Notes: a model not told the origin generated them from the letters alone. Shown: positions 1-13,392, numbered from the stretch's first letter. The stretch is DNA of 48,172 bases from Arcicella sp. (GCA_014376355.1 JACMRQ010000123.1:1-48172), one strand, 5' to 3'. Program-made: numbers and translations.

Positions 1-1056
1 ATCAGCAAAATTTGCTCCCCAACTAATGGCAAAATTCATTAATCCAACCTCTTGGGTTTTGTCACTGAATGGTTTTCCAACGCCTTGATTTACCATAAAA
101 TGATTGAAACGGATATTGGTGAAATAGTAATCCATCAAACCGTCGTTGTTATAATCGCCCACCGCTGTTGCCATAGAGTTGATTTTTAAGTCCATTTTTA
201 ATGCTGGAGAAACATCTATAAATTTCTTTCGCCAACCTTTATTTTCCAATAATAGATTGGGAGTTCGTTTATACCCAAAATCGTGATTGATGATGAGGTC
301 CTGATCGCCATCATTATCAAAATCTGTGAAAACACCCCCAAAACCAAAACCTTTATAGTTTAAGCCGTAATCTTCATACACATCTTCAAAATATTTACCG
401 CCTTTATTCAGTAGTAAATAGCCCTTTGAAGTTTGTGTAGCTCCCACAATCGTTGCATCATTTATGACCGTTAATTCTCCTTTAAAATCGTTAAAATAAT
501 TGCCTACATATAAATCAGGGAAACCATCAGCATTGAAATCGCCAAAACTGGCTGCGGTACTGAATGAGATTAATTGGTCAAGTTTATATTCCTTTGTTGC
601 ATCTCTGAAAGTTCCATTTCCGTTATTCAAAAATAATAAATTCATGGCTCTCGGCACAGGAAGTTTTTTGCCTTTTGTGGTGATAGTCGTCACGAATAAA
701 TCTACAAATCCATCACGATTTACGTCTGCCGCTGTTGCTCCTTGAGTTACAAATTTCTTAGAAATTGTCAATCCAGATTTTTCGTAAACATTCGTAAATC
801 GTGGCGACGAACCGGTTCCATTTCCATTGTTTTTATAGAGAATATCATCATTCATTCCACCCGTTAGGAAAACATCTTCAAAGCCGTCATTATCAAAGTC
901 AAGCACACAAGCCCCGCCTCCAAACATTCCTTCATAAACTTGGAATTGGTGATTAATTCCTGATTGTTTTGTTACATCCTTAAAGTTTTTTTGGGCTTTG
1001 GAAAAGGGTATCAGACAAAGTAATAGTAGTGTTGTAATAATAATTTTTTTTTTCAT
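1..1056 (-). CDS. FG-GAP/VCBS repeat exported protein (CRTAC1-like), 3' end outside window
   Basis: This reading frame is absent from the ORF track because its stop lies beyond the left edge. I read it from the ATG at 1056, and it stays open for 352 codons. It begins with a type I signal peptide (MKKKIIITTLLLLCLIPFSKA, probable cleavage before QKNF). At least five calcium-loop FG-GAP/VCBS motifs follow: DFDNDGFED, DVNRDGFVD, DFNADGFPD, DFDNDGDQD and DYNNDGLMD. Such repeats build extracellular beta-propellers. The N-terminus (GINHQFQVYEGMFGGGACV) resembles CRTAC1-type proteins. An ASPIC domain may lie in the missing part. Only 6 nt separate it from the haloperoxidase stop codon, so the two are probably co-transcribed and translationally coupled. 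Unlike its neighbours it lacks a lipobox cysteine, so it may be periplasmic or secreted. Its substrate or binding partner is unknown. Confidence 0.9.
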   Translation of the reverse strand, partial: MKKKIIITTLLLLCLIPFSKAQKNFKDVTKQSGINHQFQVYEGMFGGGACVLDFDNDGFEDVFLTGGMNDDILYKNNGNGTGSSPRFTNVYEKSGLTISKKFVTQGATAADVNRDGFVDLFVTTITTKGKKLPVPRAMNLLFLNNGNGTFRDATKEYKLDQLISFSTAASFGDFNADGFPDLYVGNYFNDFKGELTVINDATIVGATQTSKGYLLLNKGGKYFEDVYEDYGLNYKGFGFGGVFTDFDNDGDQDLIINHDFGYKRTPNLLLENKGWRKKFIDVSPALKMDLKINSMATAVGDYNNDGLMDYYFTNIRFNHFMVNQGVGKPFSDKTQEVGLMNFAISWGANFAD

Positions 1057-1062
1057 ACCAAG

Positions 1063-2400
1063 TTATTTTTTCCAATGTAAAGCGTTAATATTTTCCCCAA
1101 TCTCTTTTCCTTTTTCCAAACCAGCTTCATTATCTTGTGGGCAATGAATTCCGCCATAAAACCGTGAATTAGCAGTTTCTGTGGCTACTTCCCAGAATGA
1201 ATTAAAGTGTCTTGCCTTAAAATCAGCATTTCTTTGTTCGTCTCGTTTCCTTCCTACGTGGGCTAAATCGGTGAATTCAAAGGATTTTCCATATAAATCG
1301 GTTAAAACTGTTGCCATTGCAGCTGCTTGAATGGCATGACCCGATGGAAAAGCGGGGAAAGGTGGGTCGGGCCAAAAGGAATCCCACTGGCGGTCAATAT
1401 GTTCTGGAATGAATGTATTGGGACGTTCCGAAAAAAACTGATATTTCCATTTCCAACAATCCCGAAAAGCATCCGCAACTGCCATACCTACACGGGCGTA
1501 AGATTCAGCACATTGAAGCAAGTCGGGCTTCGATTTTTGAATAGCAATCGTGGCTAAATAATAGGAATGTCCAGGCGGGGTGAAAGTCTCGTCGGGATCG
1601 TCACTCCACCAAATCGCAATTTCTTTTTCTTCTTGCGTTAAGATTTTTCGTTTTTCATAAACCTTCATAAACTGTTGATAATACGTAGAATTTATATTGG
1701 TATCACAGACAATGAATTTTGGGTCTTTCAGATTTGCATCAATCGCTAAAAAAGTGCGGTTTTCCCCCCAATGTGGTTGCAAAGGATAATGACTAAAAGA
1801 TTGTGCATAAAGTGGTGGTTTCCAGCAACCTAAGAAGGTAGGGTGCTTCATTTGTTTATCAAAATTCTTTAAATATGCCCGATGTCCACCATCTATTTTC
1901 GACCATTCAAAAATTTGTTGAGCTACGGCTTTTCCAAAATTTACTGAACGATTTATAACTATTGTATCTTGAATATTCTCAGAAAATTGTTCCAAAATCA
2001 AGGTTTCCAAAGAATCTATTTTACCTTTATTTATATCAGAAGTTTGGTTATACATACTTTTCAAAATAAATGCTTGTCCTGCATTTAGAGCCACTTGCCA
2101 ATCATATTTTTTGCCTTTATCGGGTTTTGGTAAATTACTTAATCCATTCAATTGACCTTCCAAAGATTGATAATTGGGATAGCCATTTACGATAGATTCA
2201 TACATGGTCAAACCTATATATCCCAAACATCTTGACGAATAAGTAGGAGAATTGGCAGGCGTATTTTTAGTAATAAACAGCGTCATTTCAGCCCATGAAG
2301 TGGCTATTTCATAGGGTTGGAGTTTTTTTTCCTTCTTTAGTGAACAACTGAACACTATGGAAATTGAAAGAAAAATTATTGATTTTTTAAAGAGTTTCAT
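1063..2400 (-). CDS. Vanadium-dependent haloperoxidase / PAP2-family lipoprotein
   Basis: This is a predicted 445-residue lipoprotein of the vanadium haloperoxidase/type 2 phosphatidic acid phosphatase superfamily. All three parts of the vanadate/phosphate site are visible: K319 followed by RP at 326-327 (KYQFFSERP), PSGH at 352-355, and SRFYGGIHCPQD, which fits SR-x5-H-x3-D with H419 and D423. The family either oxidises halides with hydrogen peroxide or hydrolyses phosphomonoesters. Sequence alone does not decide between these here. The track ORF begins at 2484, but that 28-residue extension (MYSICTFRPRAYAIRPYNWK) is translated from a REP-like repeat and hides the signal peptide. The start at 2400 gives MKLFKKSIIFLSISIVFSC with a lipidatable Cys19. 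The gene lies between two FG-GAP genes in the left array. Confidence 0.88.
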   Translation of the reverse strand: MKLFKKSIIFLSISIVFSCSLKKEKKLQPYEIATSWAEMTLFITKNTPANSPTYSSRCLGYIGLTMYESIVNGYPNYQSLEGQLNGLSNLPKPDKGKKYDWQVALNAGQAFILKSMYNQTSDINKGKIDSLETLILEQFSENIQDTIVINRSVNFGKAVAQQIFEWSKIDGGHRAYLKNFDKQMKHPTFLGCWKPPLYAQSFSHYPLQPHWGENRTFLAIDANLKDPKFIVCDTNINSTYYQQFMKVYEKRKILTQEEKEIAIWWSDDPDETFTPPGHSYYLATIAIQKSKPDLLQCAESYARVGMAVADAFRDCWKWKYQFFSERPNTFIPEHIDRQWDSFWPDPPFPAFPSGHAIQAAAMATVLTDLYGKSFEFTDLAHVGRKRDEQRNADFKARHFNSFWEVATETANSRFYGGIHCPQDNEAGLEKGKEIGENINALHWKK

Positions 2401-2433
2401 GGTTGTAATTTTGTGTGGTTTACATTTCCAGTT

Positions 2434-2490
2434 GTAGGGGCGTATAGCATACGCCCTCGGACGAAATGTGCATATACTATACATCTCTAC
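2434..2490. repeat. REP/BIME-like double hairpin, copy A
   Basis: Two head-to-head palindromic halves are present. The left half reads GTAGGGGCGTATAGCATACG. The right half, on the other strand, reads GTAGAGATGTATAGTATATG. Each half can fold on itself, with arms such as GGGCGTAT/ATACGCCC. Both carry GTAG at the 5' foot, as known REP elements recognised by Y1 (RAYT) transposases do. Related copies occur at 30901 and 38694. The element overlaps the stop codon of the upstream FG-GAP gene (TAG at 2487-2489) and fills the gap before the haloperoxidase gene. Confidence 0.7.
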
Positions 2491-5400
2491 CTTAGTTTCA
2501 ACCGATAACTCATTATTTTCTGCTGATTTATACCAAAAAGTAGTAAATCATTTATTTGCACTACACTCCGCACATCGCCTTTCAATTTAAAACCAGAAAG
2601 TGATTGATTAAGGTATTGAAAATTGCCTTTCCCATTTCCTTTCATTAAAAAGCCATAATTGGCATCCATTCTACCCAATCTGATTTTGGTGTGCAGATTA
2701 TTGCCACAAAGCAAAACGTCATCATTTCCATCTTTATCAAAATCCAAAACAGTTATCGTATGAACGGGGGCAAATTGGGCTTGTATTGGCAATGGACTTG
2801 CTTTAAATTTAATGGTATTAGTACTCAAAAATAGCGTTGTTTGTAAATGATTTGCCGTTAAATGTCCCGCATTTTTCAAATCTTCGGGCGTGAAAATGGT
2901 TTCCAAAGTTGCATTTGCATAACTTTCATAAGTAGGAAATTGCGAACGATAACCGCCAATTTGATTGAGCAATTCATCTCTGGTAACGTAGGGATAACTT
3001 TTTCCTTGAATGTAAGAACATAAAATTGATTCAATTGAACCATTTTTGTCAAAATCTTTGTAATACGTCTCCGCTGGGGTATTTTCACTAACTTTTATTT
3101 GAGAATTATTACCCCAATTGCCAATCATTAAATCGGGTTTATAGTCTTTATTGAAATCTCCAACAGCAATTTTATTCCAAAAACCGTTGTATTTTTTATC
3201 AAAATAAGTATCGGTTTTATTTACCATCTTGCCTTTTTCATACGCAAAAACGGTAACGGGCATCCATTCACCAACTACGACCAATTCCTTTTTATTATCC
3301 TGATTCAAATCTATCCAAATGGCATCCGTTACCATCCCTATTTTCTCTAATTCGGGAGCCATTTTTTGTGTTTGATTAGTGAAATGTCCTTTCCCATCGT
3401 TCAGTAAAAAATAACTAACTGGCGTTACAGGATATTTGCCTGGAATCATTCTTGAACCCACAAAAATATCCATAAATCCATCTTCATTTACGTCATTAAC
3501 TGCAACGCACGATTTGCTCGAAAGCATTGAAGGTAAAGCATTTAGGCTTTTTATGAAATGTCCTTTTCCATCATTCAAATATAATCTATCTTGCAAAAGA
3601 GCATCGTTTTCTGCAAAAGAATGATACCCGCCACTTGCCACATAAATATCTTGAAAACCATCATTATTGGCATCAAAAAAAACAGCATTTTCATCGTGAT
3701 TTGCCTTATCAATTTCAAATGTAGGTATTTTTTGTAGAGCAAAATGCCCACCTTTTTGTTGAATATACAATGAACCACTTTGTCCAGCCGCTCCACCCAC
3801 AAAAATATCGTCTAAACCATCTTTATTCAAATCCCCTTTTGCCATACAAGGTCCTGTGTAGGATGGTTCGCTGATAAGTAATAATTGTCTATCAAAATCA
3901 TTGATAGAAATAATTGGATTTTGATAGGGAATAGGAGAGTGGATTTCGCTATAAAGTGGCTCAATTAATTGAGGTTTTATGGATTTTTCATTAGCATTAT
4001 TTTCGTTTAAAGTAACGGTTTGATTTACGGTTAAATTCCTAATGGTCTCTTGTTTTCCACTCGACCACAGAATTCTTAAAGAGTCAATTTTAGGTTCTTT
4101 TCCTAAGCCAAAATGCAGTACTGGAGATATAGCAGATAAATATCCTCTGGTAATAGTTTGGTTTTGGGTTTGAATTTTCCCCTTCGCATAAATACTTATT
4201 TTACTGCCAATGCCTTGCGTATTGCCATTTTTACCGCTTAATTTTATCTGTAAATAATTATTCTTTAACAGTTTTTCAGACTCATTTCTGTAAATAAAAG
4301 CGGGTTGATTAATATTATTGACAATCAAATCTAAGTCACCGTCATTGTCCAAATCTGCGTAAGCCGAACCGTTGCTGTTGGAAGGTCGGTTGATACCCCA
4401 AGCAATTGTTTCATTTGAAAACGAAGCACCATTTTGATTTTTGAATAAATAATTTACGACGTTAGAAGCGGGCATTTTGGCAATAATTTCTAAAACATCC
4501 TCACGCACTAATCGCCCTTTTTTTTGGACAAAATCATCCATATATTTGATGAAATCCATATTAGTATAATCGTGATAATAACCGTTGCTCACAAACAAAT
4601 CTTTCCAACCATCATTGTCAAAATCGGCAAAAAGAGCCGCCCAACTCCAATCAGTATTGGAAATTCCTTGCATTTGACCAACTTCTGAAAAATCACCGTT
4701 TCCATTGTTTACATGTAGCATATTTCTCATATATTGATAATAGAAACCACTCTTAACATTGAGGTTAAATTTGGCAAAATTATCAGGAGCCAACAATAAT
4801 TTCTGGCGATGATTGCTTTCTGGAATCATATCGAGTGTGAAAATATCATCGTGTCCATCATTGTTTATATCCGACACATCATTTCCCATTGAAAATTGGC
4901 TGGTATGTCCCAAACTTTGTTGGACAGTATTGGTAAAAGTGCCGTTCTTGTTGTTCAAATAAAGATAATCAGGCACGGCATAATCATTTGATAAATAGAA
5001 ATCTATCCAACCATCATCATTAAAATCTGCCATTCCTAAGCCTAAACCATAACTTAAAGCCGAACCGTTGATGCCAGATTTTGTGGTTACATCGTCAAAA
5101 TGTCCATTGGTTTGTTTGAATAATCTTAAACCTCTTTCAGGGTCATCAGTTTTTAGGAATTCTGCCGTACTCGCTTCGTTAAGAATAGGAAGATTTTTAG
5201 GATTATGGTTCAATAAAAGCATATCCAAATCACCATCTTTATCATAATCCAAAAAATAAGATTGGTTACTAAATCCTTGACTTGCTAATCCATATTCCTC
5301 CGCTTTTTCAACAAAAGTGGGAATTCCTTTCGCATTATTTCCCTGATTGATAAATAATTGATTAGTTCGTTTTTCAGCAGGCATCGCACCCGAATAACAG

Positions 5401-5846
5401 AGATAAATATCCAACTTTCCATCTGCATTTATATCAACCGTATTTACCCCAGTTTTCCAAGGACCAGAACGTCCGCCCGCTCCTGATATTTCTGTAATAT
5501 CTTCAAAGCGTGGCGACGCACCGTTCCCCAAACCTTTATTTATGTAAAATTTATTTTCACTCATATTAGAAGTAAAATATAAGTCAATATTGCCATCTCC
5601 GTCAAAATCTCCCGAAGCCACACCGCCCCCGTTGTAAAAATATTCATACATTAAAATATTGGTATTCAATCCTTCATTGAGGATATTTTGAAACTCAACC
5701 CCTGTTTCTTCAGGTGTAAGGAGCGTAAAAAGTGTAGGTTCATTTGATGAGGTTTGTTCATCTTTTGATTTGTCTTTACAGGCTGTTAAGCCAAGAAAAA
5801 CAAGGATTATAAAGCCAATAAAACGTTTTGAGGGAATACAGAGCAT
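2487..5846 (-). CDS. Giant FG-GAP/VCBS repeat lipoprotein with ASPIC/UnbV domain
   Basis: This 1119-residue protein has a lipoprotein signal (FIILVFLGLTAC). About a dozen DxDxDG-type calcium loops are spread over its whole length, for example DFDGDGNID, DYDKDGDLD, DFNDDGWID, DLDNDGDLD, DLNKDGLDD and DFDKDGNDD. They suggest two beta-propeller blocks. An ASPIC/UnbV domain lies between them at about residues 530-612 (NYLQIKLSGKNGNTQGIGSK through the HFGLGK motif). The family is common in Bacteroidota but lacks an assigned activity. Surface or outer-membrane anchoring and carbohydrate or protein binding are inferences. It follows the SusC/SusD pair after a terminator-like hairpin and precedes the haloperoxidase gene. 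It is paralogous to the 38827-42381 gene; compare YEYFYNGGGVASGDFDGD with FEYVNNGGGVALGDFNND. Confidence 0.92.
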   Translation of the reverse strand: MLCIPSKRFIGFIILVFLGLTACKDKSKDEQTSSNEPTLFTLLTPEETGVEFQNILNEGLNTNILMYEYFYNGGGVASGDFDGDGNIDLYFTSNMSENKFYINKGLGNGASPRFEDITEISGAGGRSGPWKTGVNTVDINADGKLDIYLCYSGAMPAEKRTNQLFINQGNNAKGIPTFVEKAEEYGLASQGFSNQSYFLDYDKDGDLDMLLLNHNPKNLPILNEASTAEFLKTDDPERGLRLFKQTNGHFDDVTTKSGINGSALSYGLGLGMADFNDDGWIDFYLSNDYAVPDYLYLNNKNGTFTNTVQQSLGHTSQFSMGNDVSDINNDGHDDIFTLDMIPESNHRQKLLLAPDNFAKFNLNVKSGFYYQYMRNMLHVNNGNGDFSEVGQMQGISNTDWSWAALFADFDNDGWKDLFVSNGYYHDYTNMDFIKYMDDFVQKKGRLVREDVLEIIAKMPASNVVNYLFKNQNGASFSNETIAWGINRPSNSNGSAYADLDNDGDLDLIVNNINQPAFIYRNESEKLLKNNYLQIKLSGKNGNTQGIGSKISIYAKGKIQTQNQTITRGYLSAISPVLHFGLGKEPKIDSLRILWSSGKQETIRNLTVNQTVTLNENNANEKSIKPQLIEPLYSEIHSPIPYQNPIISINDFDRQLLLISEPSYTGPCMAKGDLNKDGLDDIFVGGAAGQSGSLYIQQKGGHFALQKIPTFEIDKANHDENAVFFDANNDGFQDIYVASGGYHSFAENDALLQDRLYLNDGKGHFIKSLNALPSMLSSKSCVAVNDVNEDGFMDIFVGSRMIPGKYPVTPVSYFLLNDGKGHFTNQTQKMAPELEKIGMVTDAIWIDLNQDNKKELVVVGEWMPVTVFAYEKGKMVNKTDTYFDKKYNGFWNKIAVGDFNKDYKPDLMIGNWGNNSQIKVSENTPAETYYKDFDKNGSIESILCSYIQGKSYPYVTRDELLNQIGGYRSQFPTYESYANATLETIFTPEDLKNAGHLTANHLQTTLFLSTNTIKFKASPLPIQAQFAPVHTITVLDFDKDGNDDVLLCGNNLHTKIRLGRMDANYGFLMKGNGKGNFQYLNQSLSGFKLKGDVRSVVQINDLLLFGINQQKIMSYRLKLR

Positions 5847-5860
5847 GAATGAAATGGTTA

Positions 5861-5900
5861 AAAAAAATCTATTCCCTAAGATAAGGAAATAGATTTTTAT
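5861..5900 (-). terminator. Rho-independent terminator after susD
   Basis: Read on the minus strand, AAAAATCTATTTCCTTAT pairs with GGAATAGATTTTT and runs into eight T residues. The hairpin lies in the 75-nt gap between susD and the FG-GAP lipoprotein gene. It should reduce read-through from susCD into the downstream enzyme and propeller genes. Confidence 0.65.
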
Positions 5901-5921
5901 TTTACTTATTTGGGAAAAGAA

Positions 5922-7799
5922 TTAATACCCAGGATTCTGAATCAACTTCGCATTTCTGTTAATTTCATCTCTACTGATTGGTCGGAAATACATTTTATCA
6001 TTCCAGTTACGAGTTTCATTTTCGGTATTGTCAACGGGAGTGTATGTATAAGTATATTTGCTTTTGTCATACTTATATGGAACACTTGGCGTTGCACCTG
6101 GTTTCAATTTTGCGTCAACATTAATGGCTTTAATTCCTCTTCCTACGGTTGTAGGAGCAATTACCCATCTTCTGGCATCATGGTAACGATGTTCTTCATA
6201 TACCAATTCAACTCGTCTTTCGTTGCGGTATCTATTTTTAAGAGCTGCCCCTGCATCCGTAACGGCTGGCATTCCTGCTCTAAACCTAATTTTGTTTAAC
6301 CAGTTTTTTGCTTCTGCTTCATCTCCTACTTCAATACTTGCTTCAATATAATTCAAGGCAATTTCAGTAGTACGAATAAAGGGCCACGGAATCACCTGAG
6401 CACTTGATTGGTTATCGGCAATGCCAGGGTCAGAGTCAATGAATTTACGAGTATAATAATGAGTACGACTTCCATTCCAGTTTTCAACCGCTGATTCACG
6501 AGTGTCGATACCATTAATTCTACCCCCTTTTCCATCGTCATAATATCCTGTTTGAACTTGATTCGCTGGTTCAAGACCCGCAACATCCGATGGACGAGGT
6601 TTCCAAATAGAACCATCATACAAAATAGTTGCTCCCAAACGTGGGTCACGATTTGCGTAAGGATCAGCTTTTTGAGCGGGTTTATTCCAATCAAATTTAG
6701 AGCCATCCATCATTTCATAATCATCAACTAATTGCTGAATAGGCGTATTTCCAGCCCAGTTATGATAACCATTTGGTCCGTTATTGATACCATAGTGAAT
6801 TCCACCCAATGGCCAGTTATCTTCAGCTACATAAAGCGCAGTATGAGTTCTTTGAAAGAGCAGTTCATTTTCGGCAGAAGCATCGCCAACGGCACTTTTT
6901 CCACCCATCGAAATAGACACATAATTGGCTCTACCATCCGCCGCTGAAGCGGGAGCGGTTAAATTCAATCTATATCCCGATGTTAAATCTAAAACAGCTT
7001 TTGCAGCAGCTTTTGCGGCTTGCCATCTACTTGTACGGTCACCCGTTGTGTAGGCAACTAATTCAAGATTGGGATACGAAGCTAATGAACTAACTTTCGA
7101 TTTTACGGTTGCTCCATCGTGCAAATCACTAGCAGCATAGGTCAAAACTCTCGATTTTAAAGCTAAAGCAGCAACTTTAGAAGTTCTGCCCGCTACCATC
7201 GTTTTGCCATCTAAAAGTGTAACAGCTTTATCTAAATCAGCTACGATAAATTTGATACAATCCTCGTAAGTACTACGGGCGATTGTATAATCTTCGTTCA
7301 AACCATAAGGTTTACTGATTAGGGGTACACCACCATAAAACCTTACCAATTGTTGATAATAATAAGCTCTTAAAAATAGGGCTTCTCCTAATAATTGGTC
7401 TTTCAATTTAATATCCGAGAAGGTTGCTTTTGGCAAATTATCAATGGCAATATTTGCTTGTCTGATTGCTAAATACATTCTGTTCCATTCATACGTTGGA
7501 CTCATCCATGACAAAGAACCTGGCGTTTCAGAACCCTCAGTGAAAGTATTTATATTCCTTCCAGAGTGGGTAAACATGGCTTCGTCCGTGTAAGCGGCTA
7601 AGGCTTGCTCTTCAAATCCGCCGTAACCCAAATATGAGTAAACATTAAAAACAAATGCTTGAGAAAGTGCCCCATCTGCCCAAGTGGCATCACTTGAAAT
7701 TTTGTCTAAAGGCTTGGTATTTAGAAAGTCTGTGTTACAAGACAAGCAAAATACCAACACAAAAGTTGTTAGCCCTATTGATATTTTTTTTATGTTCAT
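5922..7799 (-). CDS. RagB/SusD-family nutrient-binding outer membrane lipoprotein
   Basis: This 625-residue protein has a lipobox (VLVFCLSC) followed by the typical SusD start NTDFLNTKPLDKIS. The N-terminal helical TPR-like part includes YEWNRMYLAIRQANIAIDNL and LLGEALFLRAYYYQQLVRFYGGVPL. The C-terminus has YIEASIEVGDEAEAKNWLNKIR, the ERRVELVYEEHRYHDARRW element and the usual ending INRNAKLIQNPGY. SusD proteins form the lid over their SusC porin and bind glycans or other large ligands at the cell surface. The SusC partner ends 12 nt upstream, which implies co-transcription. Its sequence is less like the other two SusD proteins here than those two are like each other, so a different ligand is likely. 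Confidence 0.95.
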   Translation of the reverse strand: MNIKKISIGLTTFVLVFCLSCNTDFLNTKPLDKISSDATWADGALSQAFVFNVYSYLGYGGFEEQALAAYTDEAMFTHSGRNINTFTEGSETPGSLSWMSPTYEWNRMYLAIRQANIAIDNLPKATFSDIKLKDQLLGEALFLRAYYYQQLVRFYGGVPLISKPYGLNEDYTIARSTYEDCIKFIVADLDKAVTLLDGKTMVAGRTSKVAALALKSRVLTYAASDLHDGATVKSKVSSLASYPNLELVAYTTGDRTSRWQAAKAAAKAVLDLTSGYRLNLTAPASAADGRANYVSISMGGKSAVGDASAENELLFQRTHTALYVAEDNWPLGGIHYGINNGPNGYHNWAGNTPIQQLVDDYEMMDGSKFDWNKPAQKADPYANRDPRLGATILYDGSIWKPRPSDVAGLEPANQVQTGYYDDGKGGRINGIDTRESAVENWNGSRTHYYTRKFIDSDPGIADNQSSAQVIPWPFIRTTEIALNYIEASIEVGDEAEAKNWLNKIRFRAGMPAVTDAGAALKNRYRNERRVELVYEEHRYHDARRWVIAPTTVGRGIKAINVDAKLKPGATPSVPYKYDKSKYTYTYTPVDNTENETRNWNDKMYFRPISRDEINRNAKLIQNPGY

Positions 7800-7811
7800 T
7801 TTATTATTATT

Positions 7812-10800
7812 TTAGAATGAGATACTTAAACCTGTATTGATTACTCTTGATTGTGGATAATAAACACCACTTTGAGCGGTTGCTTCTGGGTCATACACTT
7901 TTGTTTTATCAATCGTGAAAAGATTTGATCCATTAACATAAATTCTTGCACTACTTAATTTTAATTTACTTAGGATTGATGCTGGAATCCTGTAACCTAA
8001 CTCTAAATTTTTAAGACGGATATAGTCTTTATCAAATAAGAAGTAAGTATTATTTCCATAATTTCCTCCAGTGTAATACGTATCACCACGACTTGCTAAA
8101 CGAGGGTGTACATCGCTTGGATTGGCAATTGACCAACGATTGTCATAGCTGTATTTCAAGAAATTACCGATATCTCCCGATTCCGTTTGGATTCTGATAG
8201 CCGCTCCTGTTGCACCTTGAAACAATACGCTCAAATCAAAACCTTTGTATTTTATTTCAAAGTTTGCCCCGAAGTTAAACGTTGGATTAATTGTTTTGTC
8301 TATTCTCGTTGCATCATCAGCATTTATTTTGCCATCACCATTCACATCCTCGAATTTCATATCACCTGGAATCAACTTACCCGTAACACCAGAATAATCA
8401 ATTTTGTTAGCTTCAATGGCTGCTTGATCTTTAAAAACACCCGCAGATTTAAAAACTAAATAAGCTCCAATAGGGTGTCCTTCTTGTTTTTGATAATCAG
8501 GAGCTCCTTGAGCCTCATCTTGAAATATGACTTTATTTTGTGCATAACCTCCATTAATTCCCGCTCTGAATTGAACCTGATTTGATGCTTTACCATTATA
8601 ATTTAAGGTAAATTCATATCCACTGTTATCAACACGCCCAGCATTTACAGGAGGAAGTAAAGAACTAATTCCAGAAGAAGCTGGCGTTGAACCCGTTTTT
8701 TGAATTAAGATTTGGTCTCTTTTATTGTAAAAATATTCAAGAACCATATCGAATTTATTATTCAAGAAACTGGCATCAAGTCCTAAATTGAAGTTATTTG
8801 CTCTTTCCCAAGTGAAGTTTGGATTTGCTAAAGAAGTTTCAACCAAAGTTGTGGCAACTTGTCCATTGATTGGATATTGACCAAATCCATAAGTTGATAG
8901 ATAAGCATACTCCTGTAAGTTTCCGTTATAAAATACTTGATCATTTCCCATTTGTCCGTAAGAAGCTCTGATTTTCATATTATCAACTGCTTTAACAGAT
9001 TTGAAGAAATTTTCTTTGCTAATATTCCAGCCCACCAAAATACCAGGAAAGAAACCAAAACGTTTGGACTCAGGGAAAATATATGAACCATCAACACGCC
9101 AAATTCCTTCTACTAAATATTTCTCTTTGAATGAATATTGCACACGTCCATAATAACCTAATCGGGCTCTTTCAAAAGCACTACCGCCTGTATTTTGTTG
9201 CAATGAACCTCCTGCAAATAATTGGTCAACGGCTGGTGAAATATAATTTCTACGAAATGCTGAAAAATTATCACCTTTAAAAGTTTCCTTTGTTACACCC
9301 GCTAAGATATTGATATTGTGAACTTTATCAAGCGTTTTATTATAACTCAACAATGCCGTCAAATTAATATTCAACGAAGAACTGTACTGTTGTCCTAATC
9401 TTGGATCTTTGAAATTGGATCTAACAGCTCCTTCTAATTTTGGTGTTACACCATCAGCTTCAAAAGTGGTTTTGTCCCAATAATAAAGTGACCAAGGCGT
9501 TTGCCAAATTTTGGTAGTAAAGCTACTTTTATCCACTGCGGCCGATAAAGTCAATTTCAATCCGTCAATCCATGGGTTTGTAATATCAATGCCCGCATTG
9601 GTTTGAAGATAATCCGTTGGCGTATCTATATAACCTGTTGCATTAGTGGTGATTACATAAGGATTCTGTCCATTTTCAATATCTGGACCTGGCTTTCCAT
9701 TAGGCCAAACTTCTGGTTCGGTTGGTCGTCCACGCATCAACATTCTGAAAATTGAACCCGCACTTTCCGTTGGAGAACGTCGTTGCTCTCTACGCAGCAT
9801 TACGTTTAAGTTTGCAGTAATGTATGGATTAATTTTAGCATCAACATTCGTTCTGAAATTGTATTGGCTATAATTTGAAGCTGAATTTTTGTAGTAAGCA
9901 TCCTGCGAAACATAACCCAATGAAGTGAAATACCTAACATTATCACTACCACCAGAAATGGTCAAATTATGTCTGGTCTGTGGAGCCCAAGCTTTGAAAG
10001 CATCGCCAAACCAATCTGTATTTGGGTAACGCCAAGGGTCTGAACCATCCGCATATTTTTTTACTGCTTCTGGACTAAAATTAGCATTTAATGCACTTAT
10101 TCCTGCTGTTGGCGATTTGTACGAACCCGTTGTGTTAATACTATTTGAAGCTGCACCCCATTCTCCTACTGGAATAGTTTTATAAATGGGTAATTCATTC
10201 ATAATACTCGCATATTCAAAAGCATTCGCTAATTGAGGTACTCTTGCGGGTTGAGCAACACCAAAATTGGCACTGTAAGTAACCATTGGTTTGCCAGATT
10301 TTCCTCTTTTAGTTGTCACAATAATGGCTCCATTTGCTGCTCTTGCTCCATAAATGGCTGCGGAGGCATCTTTTAATACAGAGATTGATTCAATGTCATA
10401 TCCTGAAATTCTGCTTAAACCGCCATCACGGTCAGGAATACCATCAATTACTACTAAAGGGCTACTGTTTCCCAATGTATTAGTACCTCTAATTCTGATG
10501 CTTGCATTATCAAATCCAGGCTCACCACTCGATTGGATAACTACCAAACCGGGCAGACGACCTGCCAAAGCACTTCCTAAATCCATTGATGGAGATTTAA
10601 TTAATTTATCACCTTGTATGGCCGATATTGCTCCAGTAACAGTTGCTTTCTTTTGAGTGCCATAACCAACTACAACAACTTCGTCCAAATTAGAAACATT
10701 TGCTTTTAAAACGATATTAAGATTTGTAATTGAACCTACTTTCACTTCTTGATTAGAAAATCCTACAGAAGAAAAAACTAAGATTGAGTTCGCACCAACT

Positions 10801-11348
10801 ACTTTAATAGAGAATTGTCCTTCAGCATTTGTGGTAGTTCCATTTTTTGTTCCTTTTTCTAATATCGTTACGCCGGGGATTGTTACACCTGATTCATCCG
10901 AAATTTTACCAGTAACATTAATTACTGCAACATTGAGTATATCACTGGTTTTCTGAATACCACCTACACTATTTACTACACCCTCAGTTACCCGATTAAT
11001 AATTACCAATTTTCCAGATACTTCGTACGTTAATTGAAGCGGTTTGAGGAGATTATCAAGAATTTTTGATAATGGGATATTCTGAAAATCAACCGTCATT
11101 TTACGATTTGATTGAATCAGTTTCGAGCTAAAAACAAACCTAATATCCGTTTGTTTTTCAATTTGCATTAAGATATTTTTCATGCCTAAATCTTGCCCCT
11201 GCAACGTAATCCGCTGATTGAGAGTATTTTGAGCATTAGTGTCATTTGCAAAAGCAGAGCTCATGAGCCAAATGGCAATAAAGACTTGTGTGAGGGAGAT
11301 TTTCATAGCCGTAAGTAGTAACTTATGGATTTGTAATGTTTTTTTCAT
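7812..11348 (-). CDS. SusC/RagA TonB-linked outer membrane protein with STN signalling domain
   Basis: This 1178-residue protein has, in order, a signal region ending near AFANDTNAQ, an STN (secretin/TonB N-terminal) domain at about residues 45-120 (ITLQGQDLGMKNILMQIEKQ), a carboxypeptidase-regulatory-like beta-sandwich (VTGKISDESGVTIPGVTILE), the SusC signature VVVGYGTQKKATVTGAI, a TonB plug with VVIDGIPDRDGG and ISVLKDASAAIYGARAANGAI, and a large beta-barrel ending in VINTGLSISF. It imports large substrates through the outer membrane using TonB energy. The STN domain is typical of transporters that signal to a FecR anti-sigma factor. fecR and an ECF sigma gene lie directly upstream, so this one is likely both transporter and sensor. 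It is paired with the SusD 12 nt downstream. Confidence 0.96.
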   Translation of the reverse strand: MKKTLQIHKLLLTAMKISLTQVFIAIWLMSSAFANDTNAQNTLNQRITLQGQDLGMKNILMQIEKQTDIRFVFSSKLIQSNRKMTVDFQNIPLSKILDNLLKPLQLTYEVSGKLVIINRVTEGVVNSVGGIQKTSDILNVAVINVTGKISDESGVTIPGVTILEKGTKNGTTTNAEGQFSIKVVGANSILVFSSVGFSNQEVKVGSITNLNIVLKANVSNLDEVVVVGYGTQKKATVTGAISAIQGDKLIKSPSMDLGSALAGRLPGLVVIQSSGEPGFDNASIRIRGTNTLGNSSPLVVIDGIPDRDGGLSRISGYDIESISVLKDASAAIYGARAANGAIIVTTKRGKSGKPMVTYSANFGVAQPARVPQLANAFEYASIMNELPIYKTIPVGEWGAASNSINTTGSYKSPTAGISALNANFSPEAVKKYADGSDPWRYPNTDWFGDAFKAWAPQTRHNLTISGGSDNVRYFTSLGYVSQDAYYKNSASNYSQYNFRTNVDAKINPYITANLNVMLRREQRRSPTESAGSIFRMLMRGRPTEPEVWPNGKPGPDIENGQNPYVITTNATGYIDTPTDYLQTNAGIDITNPWIDGLKLTLSAAVDKSSFTTKIWQTPWSLYYWDKTTFEADGVTPKLEGAVRSNFKDPRLGQQYSSSLNINLTALLSYNKTLDKVHNINILAGVTKETFKGDNFSAFRRNYISPAVDQLFAGGSLQQNTGGSAFERARLGYYGRVQYSFKEKYLVEGIWRVDGSYIFPESKRFGFFPGILVGWNISKENFFKSVKAVDNMKIRASYGQMGNDQVFYNGNLQEYAYLSTYGFGQYPINGQVATTLVETSLANPNFTWERANNFNLGLDASFLNNKFDMVLEYFYNKRDQILIQKTGSTPASSGISSLLPPVNAGRVDNSGYEFTLNYNGKASNQVQFRAGINGGYAQNKVIFQDEAQGAPDYQKQEGHPIGAYLVFKSAGVFKDQAAIEANKIDYSGVTGKLIPGDMKFEDVNGDGKINADDATRIDKTINPTFNFGANFEIKYKGFDLSVLFQGATGAAIRIQTESGDIGNFLKYSYDNRWSIANPSDVHPRLASRGDTYYTGGNYGNNTYFLFDKDYIRLKNLELGYRIPASILSKLKLSSARIYVNGSNLFTIDKTKVYDPEATAQSGVYYPQSRVINTGLSISF

Positions 11349-11446
11349 ACATTTGAAGGAGTTTTGTTTAGGAAAATTTTGAGCAAAACGATTCCCGTAT
11401 ATTACCTTGTAATTGCTGATTGGTTGAATCCAAAATGGGAATTTTA

Positions 11447-11479
11447 AAGTCGGTAATGCTGAAACATTGCCGATTTTTT
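11447..11479. terminator. Hairpin between fecR and susC, terminator or attenuator
   Basis: CGGTAATG and CATTGCCG form an 8-bp stem (one G-T pair) with a 6-nt loop. On the plus strand it is followed by seven T residues. On the minus strand, the direction of transcription here, the tail is weak (ACTTTAAAA). It lies in the 214-nt fecR-susC gap and could partly insulate susC from the regulator genes. Confidence 0.45.
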
Positions 11480-11562
11480 TGTGGCTTGTTTTTTATTTTT
11501 TCATAAAATAATTTGTGTTTGAGTTTAAAGAAATAATAATTTTATTAGTAATCCACGTTCTT

Positions 11563-12678
11563 TTATCGACATCCTTTACTGTAAATCACGATTTGACCAT
11601 CCAAGATTTCATAATGAGCTTCAACACCTTTACAAATGATATTCAATTTGTCAAATAATTGTAAATCCGTCAATGATGCTGTTAATGGACAATTAGATAA
11701 TAATTCTTCATCAAAAACAATATCAATACTATATGCTTTTTCAAGAATTCTTAAAATTTCACTGACAGGTCTATCTTCAAACTCAAAGACCGTTTTAATT
11801 TTTTCCTGTTTAACAATAGTAGGCATTTCAACCAATGATTTTGCCATTCTAACCTCTTCTCTTGCATAAACAATTTTTTGATTAGGCGTTAATACCACAC
11901 CTCCCAATTCTCGATTAGTCGCTTTTTCTTTACTATTTGCATCAGACTGTGCAAACACCGAAACTTTTCCAGACTTTACTTCAACCGTTACTTCCTTATC
12001 TTTATCATAGGCCTTAATGCTAAAACTTGTTCCTAATACCTTAGTAATCAGTTCATTAGCGTACACAACAAACGGCTTTTCAGGGTTTTTTGTTACTTCA
12101 AAAAAGGCTTCACCTGATAAAAATATTTCACGAGTATTACCCAGAAAATTTTTGGAATAACTTATTTTACTACCTTTTTTGAGAAGAACCAAACTGCCGT
12201 CAATCAGTTGAACAGGTAAAGTTTTTTCATTTTCATTTTTTACCTCAATCATTTCATTGGAATTATTAGCAACCAATTTTTCATAAATGCCCTTTACGGG
12301 AGATTTTTGATGTGAAATATGATTATACCAAAAACCTATTCCCACTAAGAAAAAGATAGATGCCGCAATTTTGAGCCAACGTTTTTGATTGCTATAAAAG
12401 AGGATTATATTTTTATTCACATAATCGTCTGTGTCATTAATTTTTGAAATTGTTTGATTTATTCTTTCGTTAATTTCCTTTTCTCCGATAGTTGGACTAC
12501 TAATCTTTAGCGAACTGACAATTGTTTTGGCTTGTTGAACCATCGCCATTTTATCCGAATTTTGCTTCATCCATTTCTCCCAAAAAGTATTTGTTTCCCT
12601 ATTAGGGGTTAAAACCCATTGACGGAAATCTGTATCCCAAACGAAATCTTCAATATCAAATTCATTATATTTTCTCAT
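11563..12678 (-). CDS. FecR-family anti-sigma factor
   Basis: This 371-residue protein has a cytoplasmic N-terminal segment (IEDFVWDTDFRQWVLTP) that should hold the sigma factor. A single membrane span follows at about residues 105-121 (WLKIAASIFFLVGIGFWY). The periplasmic part is a FecR domain (LIDGSLVLLKKGSKISYSKN, REIFLSGEAFFEVTKNPEKPF, GTSFSIKAY) and a C-terminal DUF4974-like region (FEFEDRPVSEILRILEKAY), which is related to STN and probably contacts the transporter. It lies 111 nt after the sigma gene and 214 nt before the STN-bearing SusC. This matches the known Bacteroidota order sigma-FecR-SusC-SusD. When the SusC is loaded, FecR is expected to release or activate the sigma factor. 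Confidence 0.93.
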   Translation of the reverse strand: MRKYNEFDIEDFVWDTDFRQWVLTPNRETNTFWEKWMKQNSDKMAMVQQAKTIVSSLKISSPTIGEKEINERINQTISKINDTDDYVNKNIILFYSNQKRWLKIAASIFFLVGIGFWYNHISHQKSPVKGIYEKLVANNSNEMIEVKNENEKTLPVQLIDGSLVLLKKGSKISYSKNFLGNTREIFLSGEAFFEVTKNPEKPFVVYANELITKVLGTSFSIKAYDKDKEVTVEVKSGKVSVFAQSDANSKEKATNRELGGVVLTPNQKIVYAREEVRMAKSLVEMPTIVKQEKIKTVFEFEDRPVSEILRILEKAYSIDIVFDEELLSNCPLTASLTDLQLFDKLNIICKGVEAHYEILDGQIVIYSKGCR

Positions 12679-12789
12679 GCTTGTGATTAAACTCTTCTAT
12701 ATTGCGATAGACATCTATGGTTACTGGATACCATAAAATTTTGAAATATTCCTAAAAAAAATTAAATATAATCTAATAATCGTTAAATA

Positions 12790-13392
12790 TTAGTTGATTA
12801 GCAAGAGAATTAGTACGGATACAAGTTCCGTTATCCATTGTTTTTTGAGTTGTTTCACTGCCATTTGTAGAATATTAGAAACTGTTTGAGGAGCGATATC
12901 CATGATTTTAGCGATTTGTTCTCGTTCTAATTCTTGGAAAAATTTTAGGTAAATAGCCTCTTTTTGCCTTTTGGGTAACATTTCGAGGGTGTACTTTATT
13001 TTTTGAGTAAGCGCTAAGGTTGATTCATCTTGAATGAATTTTTCTTCAATTGAAAATTCAATATCAAAAGAATCTTTTGATTCCGTCAAGATGTCTGAAA
13101 AATAGAATGGCAATGTTGACCGATGAATACGTCTTCTTAAGGATGCCATCAAATAAGGTTTAACCATAACATTATTTGACAGATTTTGACGGCTCTCCCA
13201 TAATTGCAAAAATAAATCTTGGATACAATCTTTAATGAATTCTTTGTCTTTTGAAAATTTTGTGCCGTAATGAAATAAAGTATTAAAATGAGTTTTCATC
13301 AACTCTCCAAAGGCAACTTTATCACCTTCGAGAAATCTATCCCAAATTATATTATCAATATGGTTTTCGGGACGTTGGTCAGATAAATTCAT
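12790..13392 (-). CDS. ECF RNA polymerase sigma-70 factor
   Basis: This is a 200-residue extracytoplasmic-function sigma factor. Region 2 covers about residues 17-68 (FLEGDKVAFGELMKTHFN, KDCIQDLFLQLWESR). Region 4 covers about residues 137-187 (MLPKRQKEAIYLKFFQELER, IAPQTVSNILQMAVKQLKKQW). It ends in a hydrophobic tail (VSVLILLLIN), a feature I recognise from Bacteroidota ECF factors paired with FecR. It heads the minus-strand array and is probably controlled by the FecR protein encoded next. Its regulon most simply includes the adjacent susC and susD. I found no clear promoter in the 177-nt gap upstream. Confidence 0.94.
   Translation of the reverse strand: MNLSDQRPENHIDNIIWDRFLEGDKVAFGELMKTHFNTLFHYGTKFSKDKEFIKDCIQDLFLQLWESRQNLSNNVMVKPYLMASLRRRIHRSTLPFYFSDILTESKDSFDIEFSIEEKFIQDESTLALTQKIKYTLEMLPKRQKEAIYLKFFQELEREQIAKIMDIAPQTVSNILQMAVKQLKKQWITELVSVLILLLIN

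Follow-up and report, generated by a model that had tools for sequence, protein, structure and literature searches.

A conserved SusCD-type uptake cluster with a vanadium-haloperoxidase-family lipoprotein in Arcicella and its relatives

Seven genes at one end of a contig of Arcicella sp. (GCA_014376355.1, JACMRQ010000123.1) encode a sigma factor, a FecR protein, a SusC/SusD-type (SusCD) transporter, a lipoprotein of the vanadium-haloperoxidase (VHPO) family and two propeller proteins, here termed ASPIC (a double-propeller FG-GAP/UnbV_ASPIC lipoprotein) and CRTAC1 (an FG-GAP protein of the cartilage acidic protein 1 type). The window is this whole contig (48172 b), part of a 4.67 Mb assembly that is 89% complete with 6.9% contamination. 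The SusC-SusD-VHPO-CRTAC1 linkage recurs in 22 loci, a count that includes the window, and nearly always with ASPIC. We see about an even chance that the cluster is a SusCD-type nutrient-uptake cassette with one extracytoplasmic metal enzyme, in which the VHPO step would be periplasmic and the cargo galactoside-like.

Gene content of the cluster

All seven genes lie on the minus strand, from window position 13392 down to 1:

12790..13392, minus strand: extracytoplasmic function (ECF) sigma factor, 200 aa; Pfam sigma70_r2/r4, TIGR02985-like below cut-off
11563..12678, minus strand: FecR anti-sigma factor/signal transducer, 371 aa; FecR E 1.5e-14, FecR_C E 5e-12
7812..11348, minus strand: SusC-type TonB-dependent transporter, 1178 aa; TIGR04056 905 bits, E 4e-272
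5922..7799, minus strand: SusD surface lipoprotein, 625 aa; SusD_RagB E 6e-52, SusD-like_3 E 3e-28
2487..5846, minus strand: double-propeller FG-GAP/UnbV_ASPIC lipoprotein (ASPIC), 1119 aa; seven FG-GAP_3 stretches and UnbV_ASPIC (Pfam)
1063..2484, minus strand: VHPO-family lipoprotein, 473 aa as called; PAP2 and weak VCPO_N (Pfam)
1..1056, minus strand: CRTAC1-type FG-GAP protein, truncated by the contig end, 352 of about 570 aa; FG-GAP_3 E 1e-27

Gene calls and Pfam thus bear out the order given in an earlier note on this DNA (sigma, FecR, STN-SusC, SusD, ASPIC, VHPO, FG-GAP). FecR has one apparent membrane helix. SusC carries an STN domain (N-terminal signalling, E 8e-8), CarboxypepD_reg and Plug, and its closest solved structure is the SusC homologue 8aa4. 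Translation of the VHPO probably begins inside the called frame, at an ATG near 2400 immediately ahead of the lipobox. From susC on, the intergenic gaps are 12, 75, 2 and 6 bp, and these genes are therefore read as one operon; the upstream gaps are 111 bp (sigma-FecR) and 214 bp (FecR-SusC). Adjacent susC and susD, the mark of a polysaccharide utilization locus (PUL), are present in the window and kept in the 22 loci, and no carbohydrate-active enzyme was found by Pfam among the seven window cluster genes.

Conservation of the linkage

A scan of genome contigs yielded six loci only, and the survey was therefore made by whole-genome searches, with neighbourhoods fetched for the closest VHPO matches. 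VHPO matches occur in 211 of the 223 genomes of the family, at one to seven copies each. When the full-length seventh protein (CRTAC1) was the query, 24 of the 223 genomes gave a match, exactly one each, and in 23 of these its position coincides with that of a VHPO of a single clade; in the 24th (G044), judging from the similar case of L009, the VHPO partner probably lies beyond the end of the contig. A maximum-likelihood tree places the VHPOs that neighbour CRTAC1 on one branch (24 rows, support 100/99). Loci of this clade span eight genera of the family, and four of the 22 were assigned to other families (L079, L080, L099 and L005, the last labelled Ferruginibacter). SusCD lies directly upstream of the clade copies that have enough sequence, the sole exception being Lunatibacter (L007), which falls within the clade with a VHPO-CRTAC1 pair lacking SusCD directly upstream. 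The mobile part is ASPIC, found between SusD and VHPO in most loci, divergent and upstream of susC in L039, L043, L048, L049, L050 and L053, last in L040 and L041, and solely in a second, divergent SusCD-ASPIC copy in L047; in L045, whose contig ends there, no ASPIC was seen beside the cluster. The five cluster proteins diverge in a correlated way (pairwise distances, Spearman 0.34-0.86), as expected from shared ancestry, which makes this weak evidence alone. The earlier note had proposed a linkage of ASPIC lipoprotein, haloperoxidase and SusCD and had held that a lack of conserved linkage would speak against its system; since the neighbourhood search found these families strictly linked, no such lack was seen.

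VHPO paralogues of about 45-58% identity were rejected as members of the system, as they have no FG-GAP neighbour and fall on separate branches. Some are directly followed by large Ig_7 proteins (L056 and L058, VHPOs 55% identical), one with SprB repeats, and comparable large reading frames lie downstream of paralogues in L057, L061 and L069. On its other strand, the Lunatibacter contig has a second locus (L007:13073-21308) that encodes SusC and SusD along with two proteins carrying sorting tails of the type IX secretion system (T9SS), one of the CRTAC1 type and one distantly related to VHPO (27% identity, VCPO_2nd domain). This T9SS-tagged locus is a predicted secreted counterpart of the cluster. 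In L086 an FG-GAP protein adjoins another distant VHPO. Taken with the second Lunatibacter locus, this indicates that the pairing of a VHPO with a CRTAC1-type propeller arose or was kept more than once. Near individual clusters we also observed a 3-keto-disaccharide hydrolase and a zinc carboxypeptidase upstream (G580, L080:15050-17398) and a multihaem cytochrome gene two genes away (G150, L052:16094-17299).

The haloperoxidase-family enzyme

The catalytic motifs reported earlier are intact in the VHPO (K347-x6-R354, P380-S-G-H383 and S440-R-x5-H447-x3-D451), and 19 orthologues show no variation at K347, R354, the PSGH box, S440-R441, H447 or D451. These positions include the whole vanadate-site set (K347, R354, S381-G382-H383, R441, H447). 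K-x6-RP, PSGH and SR-x5-H-x3-D also make up the motif of class A acid phosphatases and PAP2 proteins, and because they are common to haloperoxidases and phosphatases, the motifs do not discriminate. Among solved structures, the Zobellia iodoperoxidase 4cit is the best match (phmmer E 1e-47). An AlphaFold2 (AF2) model of the VHPO (pLDDT 79.9) matches 4cit/4usz in Foldseek at E 7e-21 over 426 columns, followed by Curvularia and bacterial chloroperoxidases at about 1e-11; Pfam VCPO_N is below its cut-off (24.6 vs 29.3 bits). The match to haloperoxidases covers the whole length of the fold, including the N-terminal helical part, beyond the PAP2 core. Acid phosphatases match the model over about half its length, with E above 5e-3 and TM to query of 0.2-0.3, and the compact single-domain fold of about 220 residues that characterizes class A acid phosphatases was not found for the VHPO in this comparison. 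The orthologues also keep, without exception, a Trp three residues ahead of the Lys (Trp344) and a Phe five ahead of the Ser (Phe376), which align with the pocket Trp and Phe in the iodoperoxidase of Zobellia and the chloroperoxidase of Curvularia. From the modelled whole fold and the pocket, a haloperoxidase is favoured over a phosphatase.

Propeller proteins and cellular location

The AF2 model of ASPIC (pLDDT 80.8) has mouse CRTAC1 (9etn) as its best fold match in Foldseek, and its lipobox Cys23 is invariant; it is a probable substrate-binding protein. Matches beyond CRTAC1 (DDB1 entries, TM about 0.2) were set aside as generic multi-propeller similarity. Further ASPIC lipoproteins of the same genome (L093-L098) adjoin SusCD, GH43, GH2, a sugar transporter or a DUF4249 protein, contexts which suggest that double-propeller ASPIC lipoproteins work with sugar uptake systems in general. 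The opposite end of the contig (36157-48172) holds a second SusCD-type locus with a GntR-type regulator, a xylose-isomerase-like TIM-barrel protein, an FG-GAP/UnbV_ASPIC protein (1184 aa, 40% identical to the cluster ASPIC), an AraC-type response regulator, SusC and a SusD that runs off the window.

The seventh protein does belong to the FG-GAP family, as stated before, but since the window is an entire contig its gene is incomplete, and its type comes from full-length relatives, which are CRTAC1-like (L005 orthologue against CRTAC1, phmmer E 8e-18). They have an ordinary signal peptide, FG-GAP repeats, UnbV_ASPIC and a C-terminal hydrophobic helix; with this signal peptide and membrane helix, the possibility that the protein is a lipoprotein was rejected. 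In 21 of 21 relatives the C-terminal helix has a mean hydropathy of 1.6-2.8 and a basic tail of +2 to +5. The simplest reading of these sequences is an inner-membrane anchor, with the propeller in the periplasm. No T9SS tail was seen in the scanned members of the window's clade, and an NCBIfam search of the CRTAC1 tail for a sorting-signal family gave a sub-threshold LPXTG-like match only.

In Bacteroidota, lipoproteins of the cell surface have an acidic export signal after the lipobox Cys (PMC5080379). Relatives of the cluster SusD have acidic residues there, and the net charge at +2..+6 averages +0.9 for the VHPOs vs -1.2 for SusD (p 2e-7, a guide only, as the sequences are related). Given the membrane helix with basic tail in CRTAC1 and the VHPO without an acidic export-type motif, the enzyme step is probably periplasmic. 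The same two features go against the machine located wholly at the surface that had been envisaged for this locus.

Regulation

Control by sigma factor and FecR, put forward as a feature of the system, turned out to be peculiar to two of the 22 loci, the window and L079, whose arrangement is similar and whose sigma factor is 23% identical to that of the window. The others have a LacI-type gene and a palindrome, or no recognised regulator, and no sigma orthologue was present at most other cluster copies in the neighbourhoods examined. The window itself has all the parts of an STN-FecR-ECF system side by side: STN on the receptor, FecR with FecR_C and an ECF sigma factor. All other N-terminally complete SusC proteins are about 100 residues shorter and lack the STN extension, most relatives being 1063-1089 aa long.

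A LacI-family gene adjoins eight loci of three genera in three different arrangements, its products being 49-85% identical to the LacI protein of L039. The exact 16-bp palindrome GTGCAAAnnTTTGCAC occurs in ten loci of three genera (g8, g11, g22), about 250-325 bp before susC. These ten are the only exact matches in 480 kb, all of them before susC, and shuffled sequence gave none; the flanks are 28-37% identical between genera, that is, unconserved. When seven palindrome-bearing genomes were searched whole, seven of their eight exact sites were at the cluster. Several loci have a second, weaker site 42-43 bp from the first, and weaker palindromes also stand before galK or between lacI and galK in relatives. 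Where the LacI orthologue is not at the cluster, it is divergent from galK-galT, as in g11; this arrangement was found in G040, G120 and G121. The relatives' copies therefore show what is expected of a LacI-type galactose regulon, namely a LacI orthologue and a common palindrome at the target promoters, and we infer that the LacI protein binds GTGCAAAnnTTTGCAC. In G101 an extra palindrome pair, 42 bp apart (L137:7335-7392), lies between a reverse transcriptase gene and a GH5/GH2-like hydrolase gene, upstream of the latter.

Galactose genes and the substrate

Galactokinase (galK) adjoins the cluster in G100, G103, G131 and G132, and a SusCD-ASPIC sister copy in G101. Glycerol-3-phosphate dehydrogenase (GlpD) adjoins it in the same four genomes and is near in G101, and a GH2 beta-galactosidase adjoins it in G100 and G132, with GH2 next to galK in L039 and L054. 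The argument that the locus has no glycoside hydrolase and so is not a polysaccharide locus loses force, as galactokinase and a GH2 beta-galactosidase neighbour the cluster in relatives. Because the cluster adjoins galactokinase, beta-galactosidase or GlpD genes in two genera, the substrate is probably a galactoside, and a molecule of galactose plus glycerol is a reasonable guess. In G130, a g20 genome that lacks the VHPO clade, LacI and galK-GlpD neighbour a SusC-SusD-ASPIC set of 53-54% identity, and the exact palindrome is present. Together with the galactose-gene neighbours, this indicates that transporters of this type go with galactose genes, with VHPO-CRTAC1 resembling an added cassette.

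Proposed mechanism and alternatives

In the periplasmic uptake scheme, SusC and SusD would import a galactoside-like molecule, which the ASPIC lipoprotein would bind. The VHPO-family lipoprotein and the inner-membrane-anchored CRTAC1 propeller, possibly in contact with each other, would then modify it chemically in the periplasm, most likely by oxidising a halide, or the substrate itself, with peroxide. Expression would be under the LacI-type galactose regulator in several relatives and, in the window, under sigma/FecR by way of the STN domain of SusC. A more specific version, which we regard as rather doubtful, is haloperoxidase-based nutrient acquisition: SusCD would import a galactose/glycerol molecule (e.g. 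a galactolipid head group or galactosylglycerol), and the periplasmic VHPO with CRTAC1 as obligate partner would oxidise or halogenate it, within a galactose regulon whose control has passed to sigma/FecR in some lineages.

Several observations weigh against the periplasmic uptake scheme. The chloroperoxidase entry 3bb0, one of the fold matches, is an apo-enzyme trapping a phosphate intermediate, which shows that phosphatase activity is within reach of this fold, and none of the cluster genes encodes a source of halide or peroxide. As to location, two VHPOs have two acidic residues at +2..+6, the acidic export signal is a criterion carried over by analogy from other Bacteroidota to this family, and the CRTAC1 membrane tail could be a sorting signal instead. 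The adjacency of galactose genes is confined to two genera, and galK alone, present in 114 of 223 genomes, was rejected as a cluster marker for being unspecific. GTGCAAAnnTTTGCAC was not found in the window, even with up to 2 mismatches, nor in the same-genus relatives G039 and G042 or the other-family copies, and there is no galactose gene near the window cluster. The window's genome, at its 89% completeness, gave no close LacI orthologue either (best LacI matches 43% and 39%). The substrate in the window genome is therefore an extrapolation.

The enzyme could instead be a PAP2-superfamily phosphatase, with vanadium irrelevant, that dephosphorylates a phosphorylated galactoside or a glycerol-phosphate glycan after import or while it is bound at the surface. 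The catalytic motifs, Asp451 included, fit class A acid phosphatases as well, GlpD genes accompany galK in relatives, and the VHPO-CRTAC1 pair of Lunatibacter follows a purple acid phosphatase gene; against this stand the best sequence and fold matches, which are haloperoxidases over the whole length while acid phosphatases cover about half with poor E values, and the invariant Trp344 and Phe376. We hold this alternative to be unlikely, if worth keeping in view. A similarly modest likelihood attaches to the surface oxidation system of the earlier note, in which enzyme and propellers outside the cell would oxidise or halogenate a polymer and SusCD would import the fragments. ASPIC and VHPO are indeed lipoproteins, and the T9SS-tagged Lunatibacter locus is a secreted version; the membrane anchor of CRTAC1 in 21 of 21 members of the window's clade, the scanned members without T9SS tails and the VHPO without an acidic export motif go against it.

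That the cluster serves defence or detoxification, the haloperoxidase destroying peroxide or making hypohalous acid against competitors or algal defences with SusCD as a passenger, seems to us quite improbable. Such a role has a parallel in Zobellia vIPO3, which is induced on the alga Ascophyllum and has been discussed with algal defence compounds (PMC9296495). It accords poorly with a SusCD pair directly upstream of the clade copies of sufficient length other than that of Lunatibacter, and with a cluster promoter that in relatives has its palindrome in common with galactose catabolism genes.

Comparison with known systems

The cluster is real and conserved, and apparently undescribed as far as the searched literature shows: in a search for the combination, the only text with both 'haloperoxidase' and 'SusD' was a genome announcement in which the two are unlinked. 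VHPO homologues are common in the family and have no clear role. One clade can now be assigned fixed partners and a transport system, to which relatives add a candidate regulator and class of substrate; the roles of such haloperoxidases and of FG-GAP/UnbV-ASPIC proteins thereby become directly testable.

The closest enzyme is the vanadium iodoperoxidase of Zobellia galactanivorans (4cit, 4usz), matched over the whole length (E 1e-47, TM 0.70/0.80, about 29% identity), with the same Lys/Arg/Ser-Gly-His/Arg/His set and corresponding pocket Trp and Phe. The window VHPO has PSGH and H-x3-D where the Zobellia enzyme has TSGH and H-x3-A, and, unlike the latter, it is encoded in a SusCD cluster with CRTAC1; its halide use is a prediction. 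Both propeller proteins resemble CRTAC1 (9etn) and other UnbV-ASPIC proteins in having an FG-GAP propeller followed by UnbV_ASPIC. They differ in the second propeller and lipid anchor of ASPIC and in the C-terminal membrane anchor of the seventh protein. Arenibacter sp. C-21, also a member of the Bacteroidota, has homologues of the Zobellia iodoperoxidase, and its iodine uptake was proposed to involve a membrane-bound glucose oxidase and a haloperoxidase, with oxidation depending on sugar (PMC5064120); a SusCD-VHPO-CRTAC1 cluster is not described there, and the cargo is iodine, not sugar. With the PUL/Sus systems of Bacteroidota the cluster shares the SusC-SusD pair, an extra lipoprotein, one-component or STN-FecR-sigma regulators and, in some relatives, GH2 and galK alongside. 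It differs from them in that the window operon has no carbohydrate-active enzyme, its sole enzyme being the VHPO-family protein. The cluster is thus a variant within the SusCD kind of uptake system and not a wholly new kind of system.

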